Virus record (IMG/VR): IMGVR_UViG_3300037847_000539
Span: 1 to 31,613 of that record
DNA length: 31,613 nt
Reading direction: 5' to 3' (one strand)
Origin: a virus
Shown in pieces: positions 14,084 through 31,613 of the stretch. The notes beneath the pieces are model-generated. The model was given only the letters and a program-made list of their open reading frames with translations, was not told the origin of the DNA and ran no database searches. The translations under genes were made by a program, and so were the position numbers. Numbering within the stretch: position 1 is the first letter of the stretch; each line of letters starts with the position of its first letter.

Positions 14084-14110
14084 GGAGGGTTTAACCCTCC
14101 TTCTTTTTTT
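14084..14110 (+). terminator. Rho-independent terminator closing the late/lysis operon
   Basis: GGAGGG (14084-14089) pairs with CCCTCC (14095-14100) around TTTAA and is followed by TTCTTTTTTT. Confidence 0.9.
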
Positions 14111-14207
14111 ATTATATATATATATTATATATAAAGAGATATAGTATATATAGATATATAGAGACCTATAGGTCTCTTATTATATATAGATATATAGTAA
14201 TATATAT
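14111..14207. other. AT-rich spacer with a 16-base perfect palindrome
   Basis: The stretch is almost entirely alternating A/T (TATA repeats with AGATATA units). In its centre, 14161-14176 is the perfect palindrome GAGACCTATAGGTCTC. The TATATAGATATATA units on both sides could extend it into a long AT hairpin. No gene is present. It sits where late transcription ends and early transcription begins. It could be another (weak) terminator, an unwinding element of a replication origin, or simply a spacer. Confidence 0.6.
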
Positions 14208-14231
14208 AGAGGCATCCGCCTCTTTTTTTTT
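14208..14231 (+). terminator. Second rho-independent terminator in the late/early spacer
   Basis: AGAGGC (14208-14213) pairs with GCCTCT (14218-14223) across ATCC, and the stem runs into nine Ts. Confidence 0.85.
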
Positions 14232-22624: not shown

Positions 22625-22921
22625 ATGGCATTTAAAGAAGGACACGAAAAGGTAGGAGGCAGACAAAAGGGTACGCCTAATAAAACCACTAATAAGATTA
22701 GGGATGCTTTCACAAAACTTGTAGAGGAGAACTTGGAGAATATGACCAAGTGGCTCACGGAGGTAGCAGATGAAAGTCCAGAGAAGGCTCTTGACATACT
22801 CAACAAGATGGCGGAGTACACCACTCCGAAACTTGCAAGAGTTGAGAACAAGATAGAGACCGATGAAGAGATTAACGAAGTCAAGATAGAGATTGTCAAG
22901 CGTAGCAATACAGACGAGTGA
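22625..22921 (+). CDS. Terminase small subunit (probable)
   Basis: 98 residues. N-terminal basic GHEKVGGRQKGTPNKTTNKIRDAF, then helices LVEENLENMTKWLTEVADESPEKALDILNKMAEYTTPKLARVE and an acidic/basic tail. The 'GGRxxGTPNKxT...P.KALd...AEY..PKL' pattern is one I know from phage small-terminase-type proteins in this phylum. It lies immediately upstream of, and overlaps, the large terminase gene. It would recognise phage DNA and regulate TerL. Confidence 0.75.
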   Translation: MAFKEGHEKVGGRQKGTPNKTTNKIRDAFTKLVEENLENMTKWLTEVADESPEKALDILNKMAEYTTPKLARVENKIETDEEINEVKIEIVKRSNTDE

Positions 22922-24047
22922 GATATTTGAGAGGAATTGGAATGCCCCTACCAAGATTATAGTTAATCAAGGGGGTACTCGTTCTGGTAAAACCTACTCA
23001 CTCCTACAACTACTTATCGTTAAGGCTTTGTCTACAAAAGGCAAGGTCTTTACTATTGTGCGTAAGTCTCTACCCTCCCTTAAGATGACGGCAATGAGGG
23101 ACTTCATAGAGATACTAAACAATATGCACCTATACGATGAGAAGAACCACAACAAGTCCGAACACATCTACAGGCTCAATGGTAACATCATTGAGTTCGT
23201 ATCCCTTGACCAACCACAAAAGAAAAGGGGAGCAAGAAGGAACATCCTGTTTTGCAACGAGGCGAATGAACTTACTTGGGAGGACTTCTTTCAGTTGCTC
23301 GTCCGTACAACGGAGAACATCTATCTTGATTACAACCCTTCCGATGACTTCCATTGGATATACGACAAACTACTTACCAGAGAAGATGTCACCTTTATCA
23401 AGTCTACTTATATGGACAATCCCTTTCTTGACCATACTATTGTATCGGAGATTGAGAGGCTCAAGGATACTGACGAAGATTATTGGCGCATATACGGCTT
23501 GGGTGAGAGGGGTCAAAGCAAGGCAACGGTTTTTACATTTGTGGAAGAGGAAGTACCCGAACAGGCTAAATTCCTCTCCTATGGTATGGACTTTGGTTTC
23601 ACGAACGACCCCACTACTCTCGTGGCGGTCTATGGTGATGACCATAGTCTATATGCAAAGGAACTTCTATACGAGACGAACCTCACGAACCGAGACATCT
23701 CGGAGAAGATGAAAGCGTTGGGCATAGATAGACGAGCCGAGATATTTGCCGATAGTGCAGAACCTAAATCCATAGAGGAACTATACAGGATGGGTTGGAA
23801 CATCAAGCCAACCAAGAAAGGTGCTGATAGCATCAACGCAGGTATAGATGTATTGAAGAGATACAAGTTGCACATCACAGGTGCGAACTTTATCAAGGAG
23901 ATGAGAAACTACAAGTGGGTAGAGGATAAGAACGGCAAGTTACTTAACAAGCCCATAGATGCTTTTAACCACGCCATAGATGCGTTTAGATACGCAACCT
24001 ACAATAAACTAACAAGACCAAATTATGGGAGATACGCAGTTAGGTAA
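22893..24047 (+). CDS. terL: Terminase large subunit
   Basis: 384 residues. ATPase: Walker A GGTRSGKT (27-34), Walker B-like NILFCNEANEL (~117-125). Nuclease (RNase H fold): YGMDFGFTNDPTTLV (~230-244), IFADSAEPKSIEEL (~283-296) and FNHAIDAFRYAT (~356-368), giving the metal-binding acidic triad of Terminase_3-type enzymes. It pumps DNA through the portal and cuts it. The first in-frame ATG lies well after Walker A, so a non-ATG start is required. TTG at 22893 is the best candidate and overlaps the small subunit by 29 bases. The stop overlaps the next gene by 23 bases. Confidence 0.9.
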   Translation: MSSVAIQTSEIFERNWNAPTKIIVNQGGTRSGKTYSLLQLLIVKALSTKGKVFTIVRKSLPSLKMTAMRDFIEILNNMHLYDEKNHNKSEHIYRLNGNIIEFVSLDQPQKKRGARRNILFCNEANELTWEDFFQLLVRTTENIYLDYNPSDDFHWIYDKLLTREDVTFIKSTYMDNPFLDHTIVSEIERLKDTDEDYWRIYGLGERGQSKATVFTFVEEEVPEQAKFLSYGMDFGFTNDPTTLVAVYGDDHSLYAKELLYETNLTNRDISEKMKALGIDRRAEIFADSAEPKSIEELYRMGWNIKPTKKGADSINAGIDVLKRYKLHITGANFIKEMRNYKWVEDKNGKLLNKPIDAFNHAIDAFRYATYNKLTRPNYGRYAVR

Positions 24048-24633
24048 ACAAGTCAAGATAAGCCTTCCAGAGAATGCAAGGGAACTCACTATAGAGCAGT
24101 ACCAAAAGTTCTTGAAGGTTGAAGGAGACGAAACCTTTATGACACTAAAGGCATTAGAGATATTTGCTAACATACCATTAAAGGTAGCCCACGCTATGAA
24201 GGCAGATGACATTTTAGACATCTCTCAGCACATATTGTCCATCGTAGGGGGTGAGCATAGGCTCGTTAGGAGATTGTCCTTTAGAGGGCGTGAATATGGC
24301 TTTGTGCCCAACCTTGAGGAGATGAGTTTTGGCGAGTACATAGACTTGGATAGTTACCTCTCCGATATGGATATGTTGCATAAGACAGTTGGGGTCTTAT
24401 ATAGACCTATTATCAACGCCAAAGGCGATTACTACGAGATAGAGGAGTACAAGGGTACGGATGGGTATAGCGACTTCCCGTTAGATGTAGCGTTAGGTGC
24501 TACGCTTTTTTTTTATCGTTTAAGCAACAAATTATTGAGGGATACCCCGACCTCTTTGGTGGAGGGGAAGACGAACTCAATCTCTCCGCCTCCTCTAACT
24601 TCAGCAGGAAGTGGGGATGGTACGGAAGCGTAG
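24025..24633 (+). CDS. Tail-assembly chaperone, short (unshifted) form
   Basis: 202 residues. It has ELTIEQYQKFLKVEGDETFMTLKALEIFANIPLK, then FRGREYGFVPNLEEMSFGEYIDLDSYLSDMD and LYRPIINAKGDYYEIEEYKG. I recognise this as the tail-assembly-chaperone-like family of Bacteroidetes phages, the counterpart of lambda gpG. After residue ~163 the sequence becomes low-complexity (PTSLVEGKTNSISPPPLTSAGSG), while another frame becomes protein-like. This indicates a programmed frameshift (see next entry). Confidence 0.72.
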   Translation: MGDTQLGKQVKISLPENARELTIEQYQKFLKVEGDETFMTLKALEIFANIPLKVAHAMKADDILDISQHILSIVGGEHRLVRRLSFRGREYGFVPNLEEMSFGEYIDLDSYLSDMDMLHKTVGVLYRPIINAKGDYYEIEEYKGTDGYSDFPLDVALGATLFFYRLSNKLLRDTPTSLVEGKTNSISPPPLTSAGSGDGTEA

Positions 24634-24761
24634 ACCACCTCGCAGGAGGTGATGTAAGCGCATACGATACTATCACAAGACTCCCCTTATCACAATGTCT
24701 TACCAAACTTGTCTACGACAAGGAGAAGGCAGATGTAGAGAAGAAGATGTTGAAGCATTAG
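24025..24761 (+). CDS. Tail-assembly chaperone, long form made by -1 frameshift at the T9 run
   Basis: Read 24025-24513, step back one base, and continue 24513-24761: 163 + 82 codons, about 245 residues, the equivalent of lambda gpGT. The -1 frame has no usable start of its own. It encodes a coherent domain: LSFKQQIIEGYPDLF, NFSRKWGWYGSVDHLAGGDV, AYDTITRLPLSQCLTKLVYDKEKAD. The short form and the fusion would both bind tail-tube or tape-measure protein during assembly. The shift itself is inferred from coding signal and slippery site. Confidence 0.72.
24506..24515 (+). promoter_or_regulatory. Slippery site (T9A) for -1 ribosomal frameshifting
   Basis: Nine Ts followed by A, read CTT TTT TTT TAT in frame 0, contain the heptamer T-TTT-TTT. 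Both tRNAs can re-pair after a -1 slip. Downstream, CCCC/CTC (24545-24554) may pair with GAGGGG (24562-24567), although the distance (~30 bases) is longer than usual for a stimulator. Confidence 0.7.
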
Positions 24762-29892: not shown

Positions 29893-30025
29893 TAAGTTAG
29901 GTTATCTTATAAAGGCTCTCAAGGAGACGAATGACAAGAGTGAGGATGTATTGATTGCCAAAGGCAAGTATCAATCACCTCGTACCTTTTGGGAAGGAGT
30001 AAAGAAAGGATATAATGGCGATTGA
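29885..30025 (+). CDS. Small basic protein before the tape measure
   Basis: 46 residues, overlapping the hub gene by 8 bases and the tape-measure gene by 11. Helical start (SKLGYLIKALKETNDK) and an aromatic/basic end (SPRTFWEGVKKGYNG). Function unknown; translational coupling with tail genes suggests a tail-assembly accessory. Confidence 0.62.
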   Translation: MYSKLGYLIKALKETNDKSEDVLIAKGKYQSPRTFWEGVKKGYNGD

Positions 30026-31613
30026 GAAGAACATAGTTATTGGAGCAGACCTATCTGGTCTTGAGAAGAAGTTAGACGAACTGATTGCAGCATTAAAAGA
30101 CTCGCAAAAACAAGCCGATAAAACTTCTGCTGCGGTTAATGAGATTGCAGATAGTACCGAGAACATAGGCGAGTCTTCAAAGAAGTCAGCGAAGTCTATG
30201 GGCAAGTTAGGTCAGTCCGTAGGAGCGATAGGTAAGAACCTCAAGGGATTCTTTGTTCTACAATTTGCGTTAGATACTATCAAGGAGTTGTTTGATAATA
30301 ACCAACAAACAGTAGACTTCTTTGCTACCACCTTCAATACTCTACAGATAGCATTTAGTGACTTTGCTAAATTCATTAGCAATAATATCGGAGGCTTTGT
30401 AGATTTCTTTACAAGCATCTTTAACAATCCATTAGAGAGTGTTAAGTCATTAGGTACTGCCATCAAGAACAACATCATAGAACGCTTCCAATCAATGCTT
30501 GATGTATTGGGCTTTGTAGGAGATGCTATGGCTAAGTTCTTTAAAGGTGACTTTAAGGGTGCTTTAGAAAGCGTTAAGTCAGCAGGTAGTGAGATGGTAG
30601 ATGTCCTTACAGGTGTAGATGACTCAGCACAAAAGATTGCAGAGGGCACTACGAAGGCAGCAAAGGCTATCTCTAACTATGTGGTAGAGACGGTCAAGCA
30701 AGGTAAGGCAATGACCGAGACCAACAAACAGGCAGAGATTGCTGAGGTTAAGGCGCAAGGCTTGATTGAGAAGTACGATAGACAAGCAGAGAAAATACGA
30801 CAAGTAAGAGATGACGAAAAATTAAGTATTCAAGAAAGAATTGAGGCTAATGAGGCATTAGGTGATATACTTGATGAACAAGAAAGAACAATGTTGGCTA
30901 ATGCTCAAGCAGTAGTAGATGCTAAAGCAAGACAACTTGCGATGGAGGAGGACAACATTGAGTTCCAAAAAGAGTACCAAGAAGCATTAAATGAACTTGC
31001 GGCTATTGAAGCACAAGTAGATGGTTTCCGTTCGGAGTACAAGATGAATCAAAACTCTCTTGATAGAGAGGCTATTGATTTATTGGTTAGTAAGAAAGAA
31101 ACCGAGCAAGAAATAGCAGAGATAGAGGCACAAACCGCAATAGATGCCGAGACTAATCTATTTAAGCAGTTAGAACTTGAGGAGACCCTAAACAAAGAAT
31201 TATACGATAGCAGACTTGCTGCGTTGGAGCAACAAAAATCACTATACAAGGAAGGCACACAGTCCTACCAAGATATGGTGAACGAGATGCAAATTTTAGA
31301 AAAGGAGCGTACTGCACAACAAGGTGAAGAGGCTCGTAAGAGACGAGAACTTGAACAAGCCACCCAACAAGCAAGGCTGCAAATGACAGGCAATGCTATA
31401 GGTGCATTGAATGACTTGGCTCAAGCCTTCTTAGGCAACAATGAGAAGAACGCTCGTAAGGCGTTTATGGTGAATAAGGCATTGGGCATTAGCCAAGCAG
31501 TAGTAAGCACAGCACAAGCCGTTACTGCGGCACTCACGGCAGGGGGTAACCCTATTAAGTTGGCTACAGGGGCGCAGTTCGTAGAAGCAGGTATTGCTGC
31601 GGCAGTAGGTGCA
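30015..31613 (+). CDS. Tail tape-measure protein, N-terminal 533 codons (continues at base 101)
   Basis: It opens IEKNIVIGADLSGLEKKLDELIAALKDSQKQADKTSAAV, the usual helical start of tape measures. A hydrophobic stretch follows (GFFVLQFALDTIKELF; FSDFAKFISNNIGGFVDFFTSIF, ~80-135), then a long charged coiled coil (~230-480, Gln/Glu/Lys-rich), then the Ala-rich FMVNKALGISQAVVSTAQAV segment common before the C-terminal end. With the 87 codons at the window start the protein is ~619 residues. At ~1.5 angstroms per residue this predicts a tail of very roughly 90 nm. The start ATG lies inside the end of the preceding small gene. Confidence 0.88.
   Translation, partial: MAIEKNIVIGADLSGLEKKLDELIAALKDSQKQADKTSAAVNEIADSTENIGESSKKSAKSMGKLGQSVGAIGKNLKGFFVLQFALDTIKELFDNNQQTVDFFATTFNTLQIAFSDFAKFISNNIGGFVDFFTSIFNNPLESVKSLGTAIKNNIIERFQSMLDVLGFVGDAMAKFFKGDFKGALESVKSAGSEMVDVLTGVDDSAQKIAEGTTKAAKAISNYVVETVKQGKAMTETNKQAEIAEVKAQGLIEKYDRQAEKIRQVRDDEKLSIQERIEANEALGDILDEQERTMLANAQAVVDAKARQLAMEEDNIEFQKEYQEALNELAAIEAQVDGFRSEYKMNQNSLDREAIDLLVSKKETEQEIAEIEAQTAIDAETNLFKQLELEETLNKELYDSRLAALEQQKSLYKEGTQSYQDMVNEMQILEKERTAQQGEEARKRRELEQATQQARLQMTGNAIGALNDLAQAFLGNNEKNARKAFMVNKALGISQAVVSTAQAVTAALTAGGNPIKLATGAQFVEAGIAAAVGA
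31516..31613. repeat. Terminal overlap, right copy (identical to 3-100)
   Basis: The 98 bases match the beginning of the window exactly and stay in the tape-measure reading frame. See the left copy. Confidence 0.93.

Follow-up and report, generated by a model that had tools for sequence, protein, structure and literature searches.

A gene that follows the terminase gene in the window, by which we mean the whole 31,613-nucleotide stretch of an IMG/VR virus record analyzed here, changes reading frame at a run of nine T's. We propose that this switch is probably made mainly by programmed transcriptional slippage, which would yield two products from one gene. A 202-amino-acid (aa) short protein would be read in frame 0, and a 245-aa fusion of an N domain to a C domain would be read through the -1 frame. 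In the proposed mechanism, RNA polymerase holding an rU:dA hybrid of about 9 bp over the run would realign, so that one U is gained or two are lost, and a fraction of the mRNA would carry the C domain in frame. The remaining slip product, in a net +1 frame, would reach a stop after only a few codons. Slippage in the window's clade is probably aided by a hairpin that forms in the nascent RNA next to the run, as at intrinsic terminators. As a G/GT-like pair, the two proteins would share an N domain that binds the tape measure, and the fusion would also recruit the tail-tube subunit.

Results

Gene arrangement and reading frames at the run

The genes and the elements at the run described below lie on the + strand. 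The gene for the terminase large subunit (22893-24047; Pfam PF04466, E 2.3e-26, and PF17288; PHROG 2) overlaps at its end the gene under study. The frame-0 open reading frame (ORF) of the latter (24025-24633, 202 aa) would give the short, G-like product and is a homologue of P12024S gp38 (PHROG 32199). Its first 163 aa (24025-24513) form the N domain, which is common to both predicted products. The T9 run occupies 24506-24514 and is flanked by C on its 5' side and by A on its 3' side; the frame-0 codons across it are CTT (24505), TTT (24508), TTT (24511), and TAT (24514). Inside the run, the heptamer T_TTT_TTT (24507-24513) stands in the phase that fits ribosomal -1 slippage. Past the run, frame 0 continues as a tail of 39 aa and a stop codon (24514-24633).

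The -1 frame is open as of 24471. Counted from 24513, it comprises 82 codons and ends with TAG at 24759-24761; this C domain (24513-24761, 82 aa plus TAG) carries a KWGWY motif and would form the end of the long, GT-like product. Ahead of codon 79, the -1 frame of the window contains neither ATG nor GTG nor TTG, leaving it without a usable start codon, and the predicted N-C fusion measures 163 + 82 = 245 aa. A previous sequence-only reading of this DNA had placed a frame transition at the T9 run and had described a -1 frame of 82 codons from 24513 that lacks a start codon and would complete a fusion of about 245 aa; all of these points are confirmed here, the lack of a start codon as far as codon 79.

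The third (+1) frame of the window is closed by TAA at 24521-24523, two codons past the run. In most relatives examined the +1 stop is also near the run, and +1 products end 0 to 10 codons past it. This early stop is consistent with slippage that yields three classes of mRNA, a point to which we give little weight because the stop may be dictated by residues that are conserved in the two remaining frames.

Farther downstream, the tape-measure gene (PHROG 1538 tape measure, E 1.3e-14) begins at 30015, runs off the record end at 31613, and continues at 3-361. Bases 3-100 equal bases 31516-31613 exactly, and the tape-measure ORF crosses the record ends. Because the ends overlap by these 98 bases, we probably have here a whole genome, circular or circularly permuted, with a length of about 31.5 kb. 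Elsewhere in the window, one AT-rich intergenic stretch (14084-14231) contains three terminator-like hairpins, one of which is followed by the window's only other T9 (from 14223); this is probably a strong terminator region.

Conservation of the junction among relatives

Homologues were drawn from IMG/VR contigs, phage records, GTDB genomes, and whole genomes. Junctions were read at 189 loci, comprising 186 that had been deduplicated by N-domain sequence and 3 later additions; the 186 loci form 60 clusters at 80% amino acid identity, and three further loci that end short of the junction stand outside the count of 189. At all 189 loci the T run is uninterrupted, being T9 (181 loci) or T10 (8 loci), and the C domain follows in the -1 frame. 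The T_TTT_TTT heptamer, which the sequence-only reading had identified in the window as a slippery string, is present in phase at every one of them. An interrupted heptamer, such as TTTTTTC, was found at none of the 189 loci, nor was a run length that fuses the two frames. As a control, 132 Phe-Phe pairs found elsewhere in the long ORFs of these loci were examined, and a run of 9 was seen at only 5 of them.

The frame transition at T9 is shared by the Nonlabens phages P12024S and P12024L, at 27% identity; their loci are JQ823122.1 1052-1746 and JQ823123.1 1052-1746, respectively, and the P12024S annotation shows two separate hypothetical genes, gp38 and gp39. Prophages in flavobacterial genomes also have the junction; two of the host strains, Flagellimonas onchidii XY-359 and Galbibacter pacificus CAA-3, are sequenced isolates. 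A MAG labeled Epsilonproteobacteria contains a relative in which T9 stands in the third codon phase (TTT TTT TTT CTG). This relative clusters with flavobacterial phage sequences, and the label of the host may have come from faulty binning. When 395 genomes of the phylum Bacteroidetes were searched with the C profile for distant relatives that use a different slip site, the result was one true match and one chance match inside unrelated genes. An additional C-profile match (E 5e-4) lies in a 775-aa frame.

Selection on the two frames and single-frame relatives

The N domain, which is conserved in 60 clusters, has a dN/dS of 0.115. For the -1 frame, dN/dS is 0.20 within the overlap and 0.107 past the frame-0 stop. 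The 39-aa frame-0 tail gave a dN/dS of about 0.5, although the overlap distorts this estimate. This tail, which had been described from the window as low in complexity, is not simply so; variable and weakly constrained, it forms the ordinary C-terminal end of the short product.

Several viral proteins in BFVD, about 240 to 267 aa in length, match both the N and the C models. Judged from these fold matches, they are apparently natural single-frame fusions in related phages. A0A6J5N0W0, A0A516L611, A0A516L5A8, and A0A6J5SVK3 are among the proteins that match both models. In Elizabethkingia phage TCUEAP1 (MN732896.1 1153-1695), a C-like segment (34.5% over 55 residues) lies in one continuous ORF right after terminase, without a T run; the likeness was seen in the C part and is only a hint that this phage holds a single-ORF relative.

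Because T9 or T10 is conserved, both frames are under purifying selection, and single-frame fusions are indicated, we regard it as settled from these sequence comparisons that there is a genuine, programmed change of frame. The comparison of homologues that had been suggested for the T9 proposal thus returned the T run at 189 of 189 loci and purifying selection on the N domain and the -1 frame. The two findings that would have spoken against the proposal, namely homologues that lack the run and have an unconserved -1 region, and an error in the homopolymer, were both looked for, and neither was encountered.

Run length and codon phase

Each run was written as pre + TTTTTT + post, where pre and post are the numbers of T's before and after the TTT TTT core. 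The pre/post counts were 2/1 at 148 loci, 1/2 at 32, 3/0 at 1, 3/1 at 4, and 1/3 at 4. The total never falls below 9 in any of the three codon phases, whereas the ribosomal heptamer needs only 7, with a pre value of at least 1. A tree of 63 representatives shows about seven changes in how the run is arranged, with low branch support (18 to 55) around the T10 cases. When the pre and post values of 8 blocks were paired at random, a total of at least 9 was kept in 6 of 840 arrangements (0.7%), a result that is based on only about 8 blocks. The run is therefore an A/T homopolymer of at least 9 whose length is kept irrespective of codon phase, as transcriptional slippage calls for.

In 40 clusters with a 2/1 run, every third base of NTT TTT TTT is invariant, compared with 0 of 142 other columns. 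The codon after the run specifies Tyr, Trp, Ser, or Cys and always has T as its first base, a pattern matched by 0 of 100 equally variable columns (40 clusters). For the T's outside the heptamer, part of the conservation of length may be due to amino acid constraint, because these T's occupy codons that are constrained in two frames (hydrophobic NTT codons, and Leu/Phe in the -1 frame).

RNA structure around the run

Downstream of the run, pseudoknot-free folding gave a mean z of -0.13 over the 60 clusters, like that of windows elsewhere in the gene. Such a lack of a downstream stimulator is compatible with ribosomal frameshifting.

Upstream, a scan for terminator-like elements found a hairpin that abuts the run (24487-24503), with arms GTAGC (24487-24491) and GCTAC (24499-24503) and a folding energy of -6.3 to -6.5 kcal/mol. 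Among the 66 distinct sequences of the window's clade, the stem has two variable sites, both of them synonymous third positions, which occur only as A-U or U-A. Each site underwent five changes, all on the same branches (5/5 compensatory), and the two sites are the sole fully concordant pair among 3160 comparable pairs. Across the family, upstream hairpins were not enriched over codon-shuffled controls in either folding energy or stem search (mean z of -0.02 and 0.18, respectively); in the stem search a control window at a shift of -45 gave a mean z of 1.93, unlike the other controls, which makes this a rough test. Because enrichment of upstream hairpins across the family was not seen, we consider the hairpin a candidate stimulator specific to the window's clade.

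Identity of the gene

The predicted fold of the N domain is confident (AlphaFold pLDDT 92); the domain has no PDB or Pfam relative and no NCBIfam match. It is covered by PHROG 32199, a family of unknown function. PHROG 166, "tail protein," matched 7 of 60 relatives (best E 2e-5) and did not match the window's own protein, and annotated tail chaperones were retrieved in the fold search at an E of about 1 only. The gene overlaps the terminase gene end and is not adjacent to the tape-measure gene, with five ORFs between the N gene at 24025 and the tape measure at 30015. In G/GT genes, a short and a long product arise by a -1 transition late in the first ORF, and the gene here has this architecture. 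Given this two-product architecture and the genome context, a role as a G/GT-like tail assembly chaperone is plausible by analogy.

Discussion

Alternative explanations

Slippage by RNA polymerase is favored because the length of the run is conserved beyond the need of the heptamer while its phase is not, no downstream structure was found, and a hairpin lies upstream of the run in the window's clade. At runs of 9 A/T, slippage by bacterial RNA polymerase is highly efficient, and it is stimulated by a nascent stem-loop immediately 5' of the slip site (PMC5009743). The sequence-only reading had proposed a programmed -1 shift that mirrors lambda gpG/gpGT. Its programmed transition between two conserved frames holds, but the ribosome is not established as the agent; judged from the sequences, that part of the proposal is probably wrong, with the polymerase the likely agent and the ribosome an unlikely one. 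If the ribosome made the programmed -1 shift on T_TTT_TTT, in the manner of lambda G/GT, two Phe-tRNAs would slip in tandem, and amino acid constraint would account for the extra T's. Such a shift is a possibility because every run holds the heptamer in the right phase, at 189 of 189 loci, and -1 ribosomal shifting is the known mode for tail chaperones (PMC5009743), with a shift of 6-7% measured for HK97-like genes (PMC3711429). However, a length of at least 9 persists through changes of phase, a broken heptamer such as TTTTTTC occurs at 0 of 189 loci, downstream structure was not found, and the hairpin of the window's clade is upstream of the run; we therefore consider ribosomal frameshifting doubtful, although its chance is appreciable. 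A hairpin upstream of the run would be expected to hinder backward movement of the ribosome. In lambda, the ratio of short product to fusion is about 30:1. Reported efficiencies of transcriptional slippage would give more fusion than this ratio, which speaks against the polymerase; slippage is 20-30% for mxiE, and the reported range is 15-55% (PMC4256274). Both mechanisms might also operate, with the run slipping RNA polymerase and also the ribosome on unslipped mRNA. The sequence satisfies the requirements of each, but nothing here separates such a combination from either mechanism acting singly, and we rate it as improbable.

Two further explanations dispense with a programmed switch or with a fusion, and each has a negligible chance of being correct. 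Homopolymers are prone to error and one extra base would join the frames, so an error of sequencing or assembly, or phase variation at the DNA level, might be suspected. The T9 is nevertheless identical in 148 loci of the same arrangement and in several sequenced isolates; with T9 or T10 at 189 of 189 loci and a frame-fusing length at 0 of 189, sequencing error and DNA phase variation were rejected. The C domain might instead be an independent gene with its own start, as gp39 of P12024S is annotated. That explanation was rejected on the want of a start codon before codon 79 of the window's -1 frame; moreover, conservation extends right to the junction, and several BFVD proteins match both domains.

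Implications

Extending programmed transcriptional slippage beyond the window, we think the balance of the sequence evidence tips slightly toward the view that a large family of phages that infect marine Bacteroidetes makes its tail-chaperone pair through slipping of RNA polymerase on a T9 or T10 of conserved length, helped in some clades by a terminator-like nascent hairpin. None of the open-licence papers searched was found to describe transcriptional slippage for the tail-chaperone gene of a phage. If this view is true, Bacteroidetes phages have reached the two-product design of lambda by a different machine, and the host RNA polymerase rather than the ribosome sets the ratio of the products. 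Many genomes of marine phages would then need a corrected annotation for this unrecognized gene pair, and slippage assisted by a stem-loop could be studied in a simple test system. A run of at least 9 T's after terminase would be a possible marker for the fusion.

Comparison with known systems

One close parallel, gp38-gp39 of the Nonlabens phages P12024S and P12024L, is the same gene pair with the same T9 and the same position after terminase; it differs from the window in sequence (27% identity) and in being annotated as two separate hypothetical genes. The frameshift in the lambda G/GT tail assembly chaperone is conserved in long-tailed double-stranded DNA phages (Xu et al. 2004, cited by PMC5009743). 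As in lambda, the predicted products of the window gene share their N part, a -1 shift late in the first ORF leads into the C part, and the phage genome has a tape-measure gene farther downstream. Unlike in lambda, the run is T9 or T10 rather than GGGAAAG, the gene sits right after terminase and several genes before the tape measure, no relation to annotated tail-chaperone families is detectable in its sequence, and the switch is probably made at transcription.

With respect to slippage itself, PMC5009743 describes the IS630 element of Roseiflexus (Penno et al. 2015), whose slip site has a nascent hairpin immediately on its 5' side, like intrinsic terminators and like the candidate hairpin in the window's clade. 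That site is T5C5 with loss of one C and an essential GC-rich stem, whereas the site here is T9 with a weak stem confined to one clade. Slippage in Shigella mxiE and spa13 and in Thermus dnaX resembles the present case in its nine-T run, frame-shifted extension, and early stop in the third frame (PMC5009743, PMC4256274). The bacterial cases found concern genes of secretion, replication, and insertion sequences (IS), whereas the candidate described here is a gene of a phage structural module, conserved across 60 clusters.
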